From positions 1 through 58,965 of the forward strand of contig JAPPGG010000042.1 in assembly GCA_028875055.1 (NCBI GenBank): 58,965 nucleotides of DNA, in the 5' to 3' direction. The translations under genes and the position numbers were made by a program. Under the pieces are notes generated by a model. That model saw nothing but the letters and a program-made list of their open reading frames with translations, made no database searches and was not told the origin of the DNA. This document shows positions 9,788 to 16,229 of the stretch, in pieces (position 1 is the stretch's first letter; every line of letters begins with the position of its first letter). This DNA comes from Chloroflexota bacterium (GTDB taxonomy: Bacteria; Chloroflexota; Dehalococcoidia; Lucifugimonadales; UBA3495).

Positions 9788-11542
9788 TTGGTAGCGGCGC
9801 AAGAGCTGGTACAGGAAGAAATGGAGCGTTTGCTGGAAATCCTGCCCCCCCGGGTGAAGAGCAGCCTGGTGGACGATGAGAACCTGGCCGACCTGCTGGA
9901 GGTGGTGCTGGACCTGGGCCGCCTGCCGGAAGCCCGTTTCCCCACCGGGGATGTCATCCTGGACGACCGGGAGGTTACCCGCGACGACCTGGACTGCCTG
10001 GTGCGGCAGATCGGCGACTTTGGCGACGACAACCGGGCCGGCATGGAACGGACGCTGCATCGCATTTCCGCCATTCGCAACCGCAAGGGGCAGGTGGTAG
10101 GCATTACCTGCCGCGCCGGCCGGGCCGTATTCGGAACCATCAAGATAATCGAAGACCTGGCCTTCGCCAACAAGAACATCCTCCTCCTGGGGCGGCCCGG
10201 CGTGGGCAAGACTACCATGCTGCGCGAGGTGGCCCGGGTGTTGGCCGACAGCGCACGCAAGCGGGTGGTAATCGTCGATACTTCCAATGAAATCGCGGGT
10301 GACGGCGATGTGCCGCACCCCGCCATCGGCCACGCCCGCCGCATGCAGGTGGCCACCCCCACCAGGCAGCACGGGGTAATGATTGAAGCCGTGGAGAACC
10401 ACATGCCCCAGACCATCATCATTGACGAGATGGGCACCGAGGAGGAGGCCGCCGCCGCCCGCACCATCGCCGAGCGGGGCGTCCAGCTCATTGCCACGGC
10501 CCACGGCAATACCCTGGACAACCTGATCCTGAACCCCACCCTTTCCGACCTGGTGGGCGGCATCCAGTCGGTTACCCTGGGTGACCAGGAGGCCCGGTTC
10601 AGGGGAACCCAGAAGACGGTGCTGGAACGCAAGGCGCCACCCACCTTCGACGTTGTGGTGGAGATTCAGAGCTGGGAGCAGGTGGCCGTACACGACGGCG
10701 TGGCCCAGGTGGTGGACCAGTGGCTGCGGGGTTACCCCATAGTCCCGGTAATTCGCAGCCTGGACGACGAGGGCGAGGTGATGGAGCGGCAGGGCGATCC
10801 CCGTCCCAACGCCGACCCGCCGGCCCCCTGGGACCAGGAATTCGGAGGCCGGAACCAGGACTACGGAAACCGGGGACGTCGTTCCGACCGTCGCCAGGGC
10901 AGGGGCCAGGACCGGCAGATGCCGCCGCCGTACAGCCCCCAACCCCAGCTAAAGCAGGGCTACCAGGAAAACGGAAACCATGACGAGGCCGGCGAAGGCC
11001 CGGAGACGGATCAGGGAGGAAGCACCAGCGCCAACGGCGTCCGCACCCTGGAAGCGCAGGTGTTCCTGTTCGGCGTAAGCCGGGACAAGCTGGATTCGGC
11101 CCAAGCGGATATGGGACTGAACGTGGCCGTCGTTAACGAACTGCGCCGGGCGTCCCTGGTCCTGACCACCAAGACCCACTACCGCCGGGGGGCGCAGCTG
11201 GTTCGTTCCGCCGAGTCCACCGGTACTCCCGTTTACGTGCTGCGCAAGAACACTCTGCCCCAGATAAACGATTTCCTGCGGATGCTGGCCAAGGAGCAGG
11301 GAGTGCCCGTCCGGGGCAGCCGTCCCCGGGACGAGGCTGCGCCCAAGGAAACCCTGGACCAGGCAATGATGGAAGCCGAAGAAGCGGCCCAGCGGGTACT
11401 GGGCGGCGAATTCAGTGTTCAGCTGAACCCCCAGCGGGCCTACGTGAGAAGGCTTCAGCACCTGCTGGCCGAACGCTTCAGCCTGGCCTCCACCAGCCGG
11501 GGTCGGGAACCGGAACGGTCGGTGCTGATTTACCGGCCGTAG
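9788..11542 (+). CDS. SpoIIIAA/Ycf45-like AAA ATPase with C-terminal R3H domain
   Basis: A 584-residue ATPase. Residues 1-110 form a helical N-terminal region. The ATPase core carries Walker A (GRPGVGKTT, about 135-143) and Walker B (TIIIDEMGTEEE, about 212-223), as in SpoIIIAA/Ycf45 proteins related to secretion-type ATPases. A low-complexity linker rich in Arg, Gln and Pro (about 340-400) leads to an alpha/beta segment and a C-terminal R3H-like single-stranded nucleic-acid-binding domain (RAYVRRLQHLLAERFSL). The TTG start follows GGAG by about seven bases. Non-sporulating Chloroflexota and cyanobacteria carry this architecture; its cellular role is not settled. It is probably coupled to the GNAT-like gene upstream, with tmk downstream. 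Confidence 0.8.
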   Translation: MVAAQELVQEEMERLLEILPPRVKSSLVDDENLADLLEVVLDLGRLPEARFPTGDVILDDREVTRDDLDCLVRQIGDFGDDNRAGMERTLHRISAIRNRKGQVVGITCRAGRAVFGTIKIIEDLAFANKNILLLGRPGVGKTTMLREVARVLADSARKRVVIVDTSNEIAGDGDVPHPAIGHARRMQVATPTRQHGVMIEAVENHMPQTIIIDEMGTEEEAAAARTIAERGVQLIATAHGNTLDNLILNPTLSDLVGGIQSVTLGDQEARFRGTQKTVLERKAPPTFDVVVEIQSWEQVAVHDGVAQVVDQWLRGYPIVPVIRSLDDEGEVMERQGDPRPNADPPAPWDQEFGGRNQDYGNRGRRSDRRQGRGQDRQMPPPYSPQPQLKQGYQENGNHDEAGEGPETDQGGSTSANGVRTLEAQVFLFGVSRDKLDSAQADMGLNVAVVNELRRASLVLTTKTHYRRGAQLVRSAESTGTPVYVLRKNTLPQINDFLRMLAKEQGVPVRGSRPRDEAAPKETLDQAMMEAEEAAQRVLGGEFSVQLNPQRAYVRRLQHLLAERFSLASTSRGREPERSVLIYRP

Positions 11543-11713: not shown

Positions 11714-12463
11714 GTGCCCGGACTGTTCATAGCCTTTGAGGGCGGCGAGGGAGCGGGGAAGACCACCCAGTCGCTGCTGCTGGCGGAGCGGCTGGCCGAA
11801 TTGCAGACGCCACATCTGCTGGTGCGCGAACCCGGGGGAACGGAACTGGGGGAATACCTCCGCGAGTACCTGAAGAGTGAGCGGCCCCTGTCCCCGGAAG
11901 CGGAGCTCCTGCTTTTCGAGGCGGCCAGGGTGGAACTGGTTTCCTGCCAGATAGTTCCTGCCCTGGAGGCCGGCCAGGTGGTAATTGCCGACCGCTTTTT
12001 CGGCTCAACCATCGCCTACCAGGGATACGGGCGTGGCCTGGACCTGCAGCTCATAGACTCCCTCAATCGTTTCGCCGCCGGAAGCGCCATGCCTGACCTG
12101 ACCATTCTGCTGGACCTGTCGCCGGAAGCAGGCATCCGGCGGGCGATGGCCTTCCAGACTTCCTTCTCGCAGGACGCTTCCGGGGGCCTGGCGCCCCTGG
12201 AACGGAATGAAGAGGGGACCCGGTTTGAGGACCTGGACCTGGACTTCCATAACAGGGCAAGGGCGGGCTTCAAGGAACTGGCAGAAGCCCAGCAGGAAAC
12301 ATGGGTGGTGATAGACGCCCTGGGGGCCATAGAGAGCGTCCAGGAGGAAATCTGGAGTCGGACCAGGGAACGGCTATACCCGGAGGAGACAGCCGCCAGG
12401 GCCAGAACTCGCGCCGCGACGAACCCTGTCCCCCAGGGAGAGTTGTGGCCCCAGGCCACCTGA
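11714..12463 (+). CDS. tmk: thymidylate kinase
   Basis: It phosphorylates dTMP to dTDP with ATP in the cytosol, an essential step to dTTP. The P-loop FEGGEGAGKTTQ is at residues 8-19. The DR(Y/F/H) motif appears as VVIADRFFGSTIAYQGYGRG and the TMP-binding region as REPGGTELGEYLR. The lid region (RFEDLDLDFHNRARAGF) is complete. At 249 residues it is about 35 longer than typical because of a C-terminal tail rich in Ala, Arg and Pro. The start is a GTG with GAGG just upstream. A hairpin follows at 12520-12542. Confidence 0.95.
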   Translation: MPGLFIAFEGGEGAGKTTQSLLLAERLAELQTPHLLVREPGGTELGEYLREYLKSERPLSPEAELLLFEAARVELVSCQIVPALEAGQVVIADRFFGSTIAYQGYGRGLDLQLIDSLNRFAAGSAMPDLTILLDLSPEAGIRRAMAFQTSFSQDASGGLAPLERNEEGTRFEDLDLDFHNRARAGFKELAEAQQETWVVIDALGAIESVQEEIWSRTRERLYPEETAARARTRAATNPVPQGELWPQAT

Positions 12464-12510: not shown

Positions 12511-12542
12511 AAAAAAGTAGCCCCGCTGCGTGGCAGCGGGGC
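12511..12542 (-). terminator. rho-independent terminator (minus strand)
   Basis: A 10-bp stem, GCCCCGCTGC/GCAGCGGGGC with loop GTG (12520-12542), is followed on the minus strand by TACTTTTTT (12519-12511). It would end the selenoprotein transcript and may also help to end the tmk transcript. Confidence 0.8.
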
Positions 12543-12595: not shown

Positions 12596-12880
12596 CTAGT
12601 TATCGGCAGGGACGGCTTCCAGACTGGTGATCCGCTCGGTGATTACTTCCTTCATCTTGCGGACCCGAGCCAAGTCGGGGTAGCTGTTGCCTTCGGCCTT
12701 CTTGTCGAAGATCTTCTCGCCGTCAACAAATACTTCCATGATGCCCTGGCCGCGCGGGGAAATGGTTATCGCAGCGTCGGGACCATAAGTGCGGAAGAAT
12801 TCATTCGCCATCCACGTGGCGGTAGCGTGGTGCTGTCAAGGTACGCAGTAGGTAATCTCGATCTGGACTTTGCCTTCCAT
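12596..12880 (-). CDS. SelW-like (Rdx family) selenoprotein, in-frame UGA = Sec15
   Basis: Standard translation gives only a 71-residue protein from 12811. Reading the frame upstream reaches ATG at 12880, with GGAGGA four bases before it, interrupted by one TGA (12838-12836). Read as selenocysteine, the N terminus is MEGKVQIEITYCVPU, the C-x-x-U redox motif of the SelW/SelT/SelH (Rdx) family on the expected first strand. A helix (WMANEFF) and the family's GIMEVFVDGEKIFDKK segment follow, then the C-terminal helix. Total length is 94 residues, normal for SelW-like proteins. A hairpin 15-30 bases after the UGA fits a bacterial SECIS. The family has a thioredoxin-like fold and presumed thiol-redox function. 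Cysteine homologues are common, which supports Sec rather than a nonsense mutation. It requires selA/B/C/D elsewhere in the genome. Confidence 0.88.
12806..12838 (-). promoter_or_regulatory. candidate bacterial SECIS element
   Basis: On the minus strand, the UGA at 12838-12836 is followed after 14 bases by the stem CGCCA/UGGCG with a six-base loop CGUGGA (12821-12806). A G occupies the second loop position, 21 bases after the UGA. This matches the general bSECIS description: a short apical stem with an early G in the loop, 16-37 bases downstream of UGA. SelB would bind this loop. Confidence 0.65.
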
Positions 12881-13011
12881 AGGTTCCTCCTTGTTAGGCC
12901 TGAACTATGACTTGCTCTAATTTTACTCAATATTCTTCCCAAGTCAAGGGTGTTTCCTCGCAATTGTGCATTTTGTAACAATTCATTTACATCTACGGCA
13001 GGTATTTCGCG

Positions 13012-13791
13012 TCAGAATTCGGGTTGCCGCTTCTCTTTGAACGCCTGAATTCCTTCCTGAGGATGGGAAGAAGTAGCGAAATACTGCACGAAGGCCATAC
13101 CTTCCCGGTCAACTCCCGCCCGCAGCGGCAGCTCCTGCCCCTGCCGGGTGATGGACTTGATCCAGCTTAACCCGGTACGGCTTTTGCCCCGGAGCTGACC
13201 CAATACGCCTTCCAGTTCCGCATCCAGCTGTTCCTGTGGCGCCGAGCGCAGCGCCAGGCCCCATTCCACCGCCTCGCTGCCGGACAGCCAGCGCCCGGTG
13301 GTCAGCAATTCCATGGCCCGCTGCATGCCCACGCGCCGGGGCAGGCGCTGGGTGGAACCCCCGCCGGGCATCAGCCCAAAGTTGGCATGCTGGTCGCCCA
13401 GGCGGGCGTCCTCGGCGGCAAGGGTCATATCGCAGGCCAATGCCAGCTCCAGCCCTCCGGCCAGGGCGAACCCATGCACCACCGCGATGGTGGGAATGGG
13501 CAAATCTTCCAGCTGGAAGAAGCATTCGTTCAGCAGCTTCACGTAGGGGGGCAAAAGGGATATCTCGTCGAATACAGTGTCGAAAAAGAGCAGGTCAGCC
13601 CCGGCGCAGAAGGCCCGGCCCTCGCCCCGGATGACCAGGGCCTTGACCGATTCGTCCTCTCCCACCGCCGCAACGGCGTGGGAGAACTCCGCCAGCAGTT
13701 CCAGGTTCAGGGCGTTAAGGGCGTCGGGCCGGTTCAGGCGGATGGTGGCAACCCGGTCGGCGGTTTCAAGAATGATGCTGGCGTATTGCAA
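13012..13791 (-). CDS. enoyl-CoA hydratase/isomerase family protein
   Basis: A 259-residue crotonase-fold protein that would hydrate or isomerise an acyl-CoA substrate. The oxyanion-hole segments are visible as AFCAGADL (near 62-69) and HGFALAGGLELALACDM (near 109-125). One usual catalytic Glu position lies in the DARLGDQHANFGLMPGGGSTQRL region, where the residues at the Glu positions are less standard, so the exact reaction is uncertain. It starts with TTG, nine bases after the stop of the upstream unknown gene, so it may be read from the HEPN/AlbA_2 operon. Confidence 0.88.
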   Translation of the reverse strand: MQYASIILETADRVATIRLNRPDALNALNLELLAEFSHAVAAVGEDESVKALVIRGEGRAFCAGADLLFFDTVFDEISLLPPYVKLLNECFFQLEDLPIPTIAVVHGFALAGGLELALACDMTLAAEDARLGDQHANFGLMPGGGSTQRLPRRVGMQRAMELLTTGRWLSGSEAVEWGLALRSAPQEQLDAELEGVLGQLRGKSRTGLSWIKSITRQGQELPLRAGVDREGMAFVQYFATSSHPQEGIQAFKEKRQPEF

Positions 13792-13800
13792 AAGGGGGCC

Positions 13801-14535
13801 TCACACCCATCCGGCCCTGGGCAGAGCTGGAGTCAAAACCTCCGCCTGAATGTCACGAAGAATTGCCCCGCCAGGATTCCAGCCGAAATAACTAAACAAC
13901 TCGGCTGCCGGTTTCAAGGCCAATTCCCTGGTATTGGCCTTGAGTTCGAGCAGCGGCAAATCAAACTCAAAGGGAATCTTGTGGGAAGGGTTGGTCATTT
14001 CCCTGAAGCGGTCCAACTCCTTGCTTTGCGAGACCCTCAATAGATGGTTCTCGATCCCAACTACCTCTATTTCCAGATGCATCTGGTCATCGCCTGCTTG
14101 AGTGGACGACAGGCGGGCGGCGAACTCCAAAATCTCTGCGAAGCGGATAATCACTTCCTTGATGTCTAACAAAACCTTGAGTTCTCTCGTCTTGCCCTCA
14201 TGCCACTGGCTGGGCCAGCCGCTGAAAGTGCCGACATGCTTGCTCCAATCGGTGGTCATCCCCGAATAATGGAGGAACTGACCGCTCTGGTAGAAACGCC
14301 ACAGTTCAATCAAGGGATCGTATTTGACCTCGCGACCGATCCAGTCAGGGCCCTCGCTTTCTTCCATATAATCATCGAGGAACGGAAAGCTCCATCCCCA
14401 CAGCCTTACTTTGCTCCTTTCCAATATGGGGAGGAGAGCGGACTTGATGGGAACACGGCCTTCATCAAAGCGGGCTGGATGAACCACAACCTTCCAATGA
14501 CCGCGCGAACGAATCTCTTCGAGAATATCACTCAT
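13801..14535 (-). CDS. unknown protein, partner of AlbA_2 gene
   Basis: I do not recognise this 244-residue protein. It is rich in aromatic residues (WGWSFPFLDDYMEE, LWRFYQSGQFLHYSG) and acidic, with no signal peptide or membrane segment. A central helix (IKEVIIRFAEILEFAARLSS) is evident. The start codon overlaps the AlbA_2 gene stop by four bases (ATGA), so translation is probably coupled and the two proteins likely act together. The AT-richer composition compared with neighbouring core genes suggests an accessory origin. Confidence 0.7.
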   Translation of the reverse strand: MSDILEEIRSRGHWKVVVHPARFDEGRVPIKSALLPILERSKVRLWGWSFPFLDDYMEESEGPDWIGREVKYDPLIELWRFYQSGQFLHYSGMTTDWSKHVGTFSGWPSQWHEGKTRELKVLLDIKEVIIRFAEILEFAARLSSTQAGDDQMHLEIEVVGIENHLLRVSQSKELDRFREMTNPSHKIPFEFDLPLLELKANTRELALKPAAELFSYFGWNPGGAILRDIQAEVLTPALPRAGWV

Positions 14536-15137
14536 GGCAAGGCTCTTCTTTGTTCGCTGAACAGTTCCTGATCGGTGGGAGCCGCCGTGTCAGGGGGAAG
14601 GTAAAAGCCAACCCGGCGAGCGCGCTCCAGAAAGCGGGCGACACCTTTGTCGATGGCCAAGTCCAGAAGTTCTCGCATTTCAGTTTGGTTTGGAATTTCC
14701 GAGGTCTCCGGTTTTCTCAGGGTTCTAACGTAGCAGGCCCCGTCCCACAGTACGTTATCAAATGCCCGCTTGCACAAGACCGGTATCTGGGCGAACTCTT
14801 CAACCGTAATGACGATGAAGATGGAGTCATTATACACCCGGGGTTCCATGTCAAAGCTCACGCTGGGGTCGGCATATCTGGCTATCTGGTCTGCAACTCT
14901 ATCATAGGTCCATGTTTCGAGATCAGCAGAGCTTAATCCCATTGGATGGATGGAGTTTCCTGCATCTTCAACGCCAATTACCACAACCCCACCGCCCTGC
15001 CGGTTGGCCATCGCCAAGACAGCCTTGACCACTTGAGCAATGAGCCTCCCTTCCGATACCGGACCCGGACCCTTGAACTTTACGCCGGATGTTTCGCGAC
15101 CCCGTGCAAGTATATCGACGAATTCCTGGTCAGTCAT
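14532..15137 (-). CDS. AlbA_2 (Schlafen-type) putative nucleic-acid-binding protein
   Basis: The 201-residue protein begins with MTDQEFVDILARGRETSGVK. The following 120 residues (VKAVLAMANRQGGGVVVIGV, then a long 'DRVADQIARYADPSVSF' helix and 'RVYNDSIFIVITVEEF') match the AlbA_2 or 'divergent AAA-4' domain, common in transcriptional regulators and anti-phage or toxin-antitoxin contexts. It lies between HEPN1 (two-base gap upstream) and the unknown gene at 13801 (4-bp overlap). A truncated copy of its first 20 or so codons lies at 15766-15846. The role is inferred as DNA or RNA binding. Confidence 0.75.
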   Translation of the reverse strand: MTDQEFVDILARGRETSGVKFKGPGPVSEGRLIAQVVKAVLAMANRQGGGVVVIGVEDAGNSIHPMGLSSADLETWTYDRVADQIARYADPSVSFDMEPRVYNDSIFIVITVEEFAQIPVLCKRAFDNVLWDGACYVRTLRKPETSEIPNQTEMRELLDLAIDKGVARFLERARRVGFYLPPDTAAPTDQELFSEQRRALP

Positions 15138-15139
15138 CG

Positions 15140-15529
15140 TCAGTTATCAACCCGGGCCTTTACCTCGGCATCCCGAATGTAATCTATGGTGTCTCGGACG
15201 TCGCGGTCTATGTCTTCCTCAGGTTCCAATATCCCGTCGTAGAAGCACTTGCCGTGCAGGAAGGACTGTCGGGCAGCGTAACGCAACCGCAGGGATTCAA
15301 GCGAGGGATCAAGATGTCTCAGACGTCGAATACCAAGGACCGTCTGACCCGATGTACGCGGTTCAACGCCGGTGCGGGCAAGAATCAGCGCGTCAGTTGC
15401 CCGCTTGGTCGCTCCCCAGGCCTTGTCGGCTGCGTTCCGCATTCGGCCTTCCTCAAGCATTTCCAGGGCATCGTCATATAGCGCTCGGGCGTCAGCGAAT
15501 AGAAAGCTTACTCGGTCTGTTTCCAGCAT
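15140..15529 (-). CDS. HEPN-type small protein, copy 1
   Basis: A 129-residue all-helical protein. It has a helix pair (FLFADARALYDDALEMLEEG and RNAADKAWGATKRATDALIL) and an R-x4-H motif in RQSFLHGK. This is the catalytic signature of HEPN ribonucleases, although not all HEPN proteins are active. It is clearly paralogous to the gene at 15843-16229 (about 70% identical by eye). It heads a unit HEPN, AlbA_2, unknown protein, enoyl-CoA hydratase on the minus strand. A toxin-like or RNA-processing role is inferred; no function is proven. Confidence 0.75.
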   Translation of the reverse strand: MLETDRVSFLFADARALYDDALEMLEEGRMRNAADKAWGATKRATDALILARTGVEPRTSGQTVLGIRRLRHLDPSLESLRLRYAARQSFLHGKCFYDGILEPEEDIDRDVRDTIDYIRDAEVKARVDN

Positions 15530-15765: not shown

Positions 15766-15846
15766 TTACGCCCTTGCGCCCTTGAATTCGATCCATGGGC
15801 TTTCCCTGTCAAAGGCCAGGATATCGGCAAATTCCTGATCGGTCAT
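15766..15846 (-). pseudogene. truncated AlbA_2 gene fragment
   Basis: Twenty-six codons starting MTDQEFADILAFDRESPW, closely matching the first residues of the AlbA_2 protein at 14532-15137, then a TAA. Its ATG overlaps the stop of the second HEPN gene by four bases, preserving the HEPN-AlbA_2 junction. It is the other half of the tandem-duplication scar described for 15658-15738. Confidence 0.8.
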
Positions 15847-16229
15847 CGAACTTCGGCCATTGCCTCGGCTTCCCGAATGTAATCCAGGGTTTCGCGTACG
15901 TCAGCAATGATGTCGTCCTCCGGCTCCAGTATGCCGTCGTAGAAACAGGCGCCGTGCAGGAAGGATTGGCGATGTCCGTAACGCAGTCGCAAAGGTTCCA
16001 GGGCCGGGTCCTGCCTTCGCAGCTGCCGGATCATGCGCATGGTCTGCCCGGAGGTGCGGGGTTCCTCGCCGGTGCGGGCCAGAATCAGCGCGTCCGTGGC
16101 CCGATTGGTCGCTCCCCAGGCCTTGTCGGCTGCGTTCCGCATTCGGCCCTGGTCCAGCATTTCCAGGGCGTCCTGATACAGATCACGGGCATCCGCGAAG
16201 AGGTAACTTACTCGTTCGGTTTCCAGCAT
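15843..16229 (-). CDS. HEPN-type small protein, copy 2
   Basis: A 128-residue paralogue of the 15140-15529 gene, with the same helices (FLFADARDLYQDALEMLDQG) and the same R-x4-H in RQSFLHGA. It lies directly downstream of secF on the minus strand, separated by a hairpin at 16309-16337. Its AlbA_2 partner is reduced to a stub, so this copy now stands alone. Divergence from copy 1 implies an older duplication than the one at 22002-23260. Confidence 0.75.
   Translation of the reverse strand: MLETERVSYLFADARDLYQDALEMLDQGRMRNAADKAWGATNRATDALILARTGEEPRTSGQTMRMIRQLRRQDPALEPLRLRYGHRQSFLHGACFYDGILEPEDDIIADVRETLDYIREAEAMAEVR

Follow-up and report, generated by a model that had tools for sequence, protein, structure and literature searches.

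Selenocysteine (Sec) is almost certainly part of a small redox-type protein from a Chloroflexi bacterium of marine type. The gene lies on the minus strand of the window, the whole stretch of 58,965 nucleotides that was analysed, and the sequence evidence leaves very little doubt that it encodes a genuine SelW-like selenoprotein of the Rdx family, from Dehalococcoidia/SAR202-type Chloroflexota, in which UGA15 would be read as Sec by way of a SECIS element and SelB. Ordinary gene callers cut this gene at the UGA, leaving 71 residues from which the active site is missing, and reading it with Sec corrects the annotation.

The reading frame and its in-frame UGA

A preliminary description of the DNA had placed an ATG with a strong Shine–Dalgarno sequence, followed in frame by ITYCVPUQ, upstream of a nominal 71-residue ORF, and every coordinate of this arrangement was confirmed (Table 1). 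The start codon (ATG, 12880-12878, opening ATG GAA GGC) stands four bases from the end of GGAGGA, and the product, with UGA read as U, is MEGKVQIEITYCVPUQHHATATWMANEFFRTYGPDAAITISPRGQGIMEVFVDGEKIFDKKAEGNSYPDLARVRKMKEVITERITSLEAVPADN. In translation table 11, only the ORF of 12811-12596 is visible, beginning at Met24.

When genomes from 84,980 species were scanned, 48 relatives with protein identities of 48-98% emerged, all with titles of Chloroflexota/Chloroflexi, Dehalococcoidia or SAR202. Every one of them has TGA at the codon for residue 15 and Cys three residues earlier, and most begin at the equivalent ATG with a GGAGG-like motif before it. In the alignment of these relatives the protein is conserved on either side of the UGA, from which it follows that the upstream 14 residues are coding. 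Were the UGA a true stop, the gene would consist only of the 71-residue ORF from residue 24, where there is indeed an ATG (12811) with an open frame. Such a reading is extremely improbable, and conservation upstream of that ATG has already refuted it: residues 1-23, with beta-strand 1 and CxxU, are conserved like the rest in the 48 relatives, the family profile is matched from its first position, and the Shine–Dalgarno sequence precedes residue 1, whereas the short ORF would have neither active site nor first strand. Still less credible is a pseudogene or a sequencing error in which TGA has replaced a Cys codon. TGA is only one base away from TGC and TGT, but it is shared by 48 further assemblies across that same range of 48-98% protein identity, with both flanks conserved, such that this explanation, too, is already refuted.

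With regard to its surroundings, selW has its own promoter-like site (12947-12920), albeit a weak one given that one match compares with 0.6 expected, and the minus-strand terminator that had been said to close the unit is present. From these two features the gene is probably a single-gene unit, the context of which says little on function. Elsewhere in the window, positions 9788-11542 of the plus strand encode a 584-residue AAA (stage III sporulation AA-like) and R3H protein, which is found near the thymidylate kinase gene and selW in most relatives, mostly on the far side of thymidylate kinase where that gene adjoins selW. The minus strand also holds genes for two paralogous PaREP1/PaREP8-family proteins of ~129 residues each (15140-15529 and 15843-16229), after which comes a Schlafen/AlbA_2-domain gene (14532-15137, minus strand) that overlaps by four bases the gene of a 244-residue protein of unassigned family (13801-14535).

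Table 1. Features of the selW locus, in positions of the window.
Feature	Positions	Strand	Details
Thymidylate kinase gene, convergent neighbour	11714..12463	plus	Pfam E 6.3e-49; adjacent to selW at ~36 of 48 loci
Rho-independent terminator-like hairpin	12520..12542	minus	GC-rich 10-pair stem (12542-12520), then T-run TACTTTTTTG
selW-like gene	12596..12880	minus	94 residues and TAG stop (12598-12596); Sec is residue 15
bSECIS hairpin CGCCA-CGUGGA-UGGCG	12806..12821	minus	Apical loop 12816-12811; synonymous constraint, covariation, bSECIS limits
In-frame UGA for Sec15 (the U in CxxU)	12836..12838	minus	UGA in 48/48 relatives; relatives that lack selA have Cys
Cys12 codon, C of CxxU	12845..12847	minus	Invariant in alignment A2
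Shine–Dalgarno GGAGGA	12885..12890	minus	Direct reading; similar GGAGG-like motif precedes the ATG in most relatives
Enoyl-CoA hydratase/isomerase gene, upstream neighbour	13012..13791	minus	Pfam ECH_1 E 9.7e-56; kept in the five closest relatives only

The bSECIS hairpin

A bSECIS-like stem-loop 15-30 bases past the UGA, with G second in the loop, had been proposed from the letters of the DNA, and both position and loop hold, accompanied by near-zero synonymous change and by compensatory pairs. The hairpin occupies columns 18-33 counted from the U of UGA, with five pairs, a six-base loop and a spacing of 19 nt from UGA to loop, and as such agrees with the published bSECIS model, which allows a loop of 3-9 nt, an upper stem of 4-16 bp, G as loop base 1 or 2 and a distance of 16-37 nt from the UGA (PMC13188914). 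Energetically the hairpin is borderline: the limit of -7.5 kcal/mol or lower (PMC13188914) compares with -5.9 kcal/mol for the hairpin by itself, -7.4 when a base is added on each side and -9.0 with free flanks, while the isolated strand folds lowest as a competing hairpin (-10.2 vs -9.0 kcal/mol for the SECIS register, i.e. 1.2 lower).

Compared with shuffles over 45 nt, the fold energy is insignificant (z = -1.1), and energy alone is no evidence of a SECIS; synonymous constraint and covariation are therefore used as the evidence instead. An automatic bSECIS scan ranked by best energy often chose other hairpins, and Rfam gave no match in the window. Moreover, a null in which synonymous codons are redrawn yields all five pairs of the register in a quarter (25%) of draws, so that a hairpin seen in a single sequence says little, and what counts is its fixity in 41 of 41 sequences. 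Codons 21 (GCC) and 22 (ACG) show zero synonymous changes in these 41, while the four-fold families to which the two belong vary freely at other places in the gene; among codons of at least four-fold degeneracy, synonymous identity stands at 0.954 in the hairpin (codons 21, 22 and 25) vs 0.499 for the rest of the gene.

In register and shuffle controls, which do not constitute a phylogenetic test, 100% of cells pair in the true register of alignment A4 (the window's own kind), with two pairs changed on both sides, as against 20-60% pairing in slid registers, and the equivalent hairpin of alignment A3 (remoter Chloroflexota members) shows C-G/U-A/G-C exchanges with 12 double-changed cells vs 3.7 in shuffles, slid registers again being lower. 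The paired columns sum to 54 in A3 vs 51 in the window's clade, which puts the clade's hairpin some three columns (partner sum) nearer the UGA than in remoter Chloroflexota SelW. It is a tentative and rather improbable suggestion that the SAR202-type clade has a shifted register of its selW SECIS relative to other Chloroflexota SelW (sum 51 not 54; loop CGUGGA not GUG, GGUCU or UGGAU), to which the SelB of the lineage may be adapted, and that the adjacency of selW to thymidylate kinase may hint at function.

Selenocysteine machinery and the exchange of Sec for Cys

That the organism should own a Sec system visible elsewhere in its genome, as had been predicted, is borne out by its assembly (3.75 Mb, 98.4% complete, 3.7% contaminated), which contains selA (contig C52, 542 bits), full-length selB (C38, 629 aa, 345 bits), selC, i.e. 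tRNA-Sec with anticodon UCA (C71), and selD (C49, 386 bits). Both selB and selC, whose absence from a complete genome was to have counted against the proposal, are hence in place, and the Chloroflexota lineage of the window is seen to use selenium. Three further tRNA-Sec matches above cut-off are tRNA-Trp and tRNA-Leu genes. In the proposed mechanism, SelA would form Sec-tRNA(UCA) using selenophosphate supplied by SelD, and SelB, on the hairpin just 3' of the UGA, would deliver the Sec-tRNA, such that the ribosome would insert selenocysteine at UGA15 without stopping.

The selD gene (L109:1210-2475, G000:C49, minus strand) is itself a selenoprotein gene, with an in-frame UGA in SHCAGUAAKI, the catalytic Cys/Sec region of SelD. 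A second SelW-like gene (L107:1036-1311, G000:C20, minus strand) has its UGA in CVPU and a hairpin in equal register, and adjoins a recQ-like helicase; it may be a paralogue or may sit on a stray contig (4.4 kb, in a bin that is 3.7% contaminated; GC 61.0% vs 61.7% for the window).

Across 301 Chloroflexota genomes, a SelW profile match occurs in 60, of which 50 carry one or more forms that contain a single internal TGA, known beyond the fetched loci by number and not by position. A strong selA match is present in all 50 (the weakest, in G232, at 5e-68), compared with selA above cut-off in 243 of the 301 overall; these counts are uncorrected for phylogeny and, since related genomes are not independent, no probability is claimed. 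Ten genomes carry only forms without internal TGA, and in five of them (G098, G202, G226, G146 and G291) neither selA nor selB is found above cut-off. In these five, Cys replaces Sec (EYCVPCGY, TYCRRC, EYCRQC, EFCQVC); a 'TAA inside' the G098 form is its terminal stop. The proposal had depended on aligned homologues having Cys or Sec at residue 15, and the homologues carry one or the other there.

G098 and G202 (loci L078 and L079) are small-genome relatives from the window genome's own order, without selA or selB above cut-off and with the CxxC form. Because they share this order, the Sec/Cys exchange tracks how the Sec trait has been lost or gained inside it and, in following whether or not selA is present among members of a single order, offers a clean natural comparison for why some bacteria retain Sec. 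A genome-wide reassignment of UGA, for example to Trp or Gly, would also leave the frame open. Adjacent genes, however, read and terminate normally in table 11, four Sec genes including tRNA-Sec are present together with the SECIS, and homologues without selA show Cys, neither Trp nor Gly, in the place of UGA; reassignment is already refuted, and deserves no more credence than a sequencing error.

Fold, function and comparison with known systems

The remainder of the protein fits the SelW-like/Rdx family, as had been claimed, and also its fold. It exceeds the cut-offs of both Pfam Rdx (PF10262; E 7.3e-15, 55.4 bits vs 22.6) and TIGR02174 (CXXU_selWTH; 36.1 bits vs 34.2), and misses the threshold of the narrower Campylobacter equivalog NF041051 (38.8 vs 88). 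A sequence comparison with the PDB finds six solved relatives, SelW-related chains whose best E is 1e-9. An AlphaFold2 model (21 related sequences as input, U treated as C; pLDDT 83, pTM 0.74) has a SelW-type thioredoxin fold with a strand at 5-12 and a helix from 18, Cys12 and Sec15 standing on either side of the turn that joins strand 1 to helix 1. In other words, C12-V-P-U15 sits in the loop after strand 1, where the SelW-like redox motif was expected. The folds closest to the model (Foldseek) are 2obk, 2fa8, 2oka and 2p0g, followed by mouse SelW (2npb) and thioredoxins.

Cys12-x-x-Sec15 would be the redox centre of this small thioredoxin-like product, probably a thiol/selenol oxidoreductase with a presumed partner in the cell. 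More generally, the redox role of SelW-like proteins is inferred from CxxU and the thioredoxin fold (PMC1088965). The literature search found no demonstrated reaction for the bacterial proteins, and in a 2026 review (PMC13188914) the family is listed with those 'predicted with high confidence', both of which would suit a protein into which Sec is inserted but which has no catalytic redox function, for instance a scaffold or regulatory protein. This is quite unlikely, in that CxxU/CxxC is strictly conserved and Sec is swapped for Cys only, as expected of a thioredoxin-fold redox pair. A search of limited reach, which proves little, found no paper on SelW in SAR202; in the literature found, SAR202 and selenocysteine come together only where SelA/SelB are mentioned for bins of sponge symbionts (PMC5649159).

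SelW-like selenoproteins were the commonest selenoprotein family in sea-water samples according to reports of 2005 and 2008. With that marine abundance already on record since 2005, the gene therefore adds one member to a known kind and is no new kind, leaving knowledge of the family unchanged. With the bacterial SelW-like (SELENOW-like) selenoproteins it shares CxxU in the loop following beta-strand 1, a length of ~95 residues and a bSECIS directly 3' of the UGA, and differs in sequence divergence only. The Cys-type Rdx structures 2fa8, 2obk, 2oka, 2p0g, 2ojl and 3dex share the fold, at a TM by query of roughly 0.71-0.77, and the motif position, but are at 23-32% identity and have Cys at the Sec-aligned position (seen for 2oka and 2obk). 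Mammalian SELENOW, which carries CxxU, likewise shares the fold (mouse 2npb, Foldseek E 2.5e-5, 16% identity). The eukaryotic SECIS sits in the 3' UTR (PMC1088965), whereas that of the present selW gene lies within the coding region.
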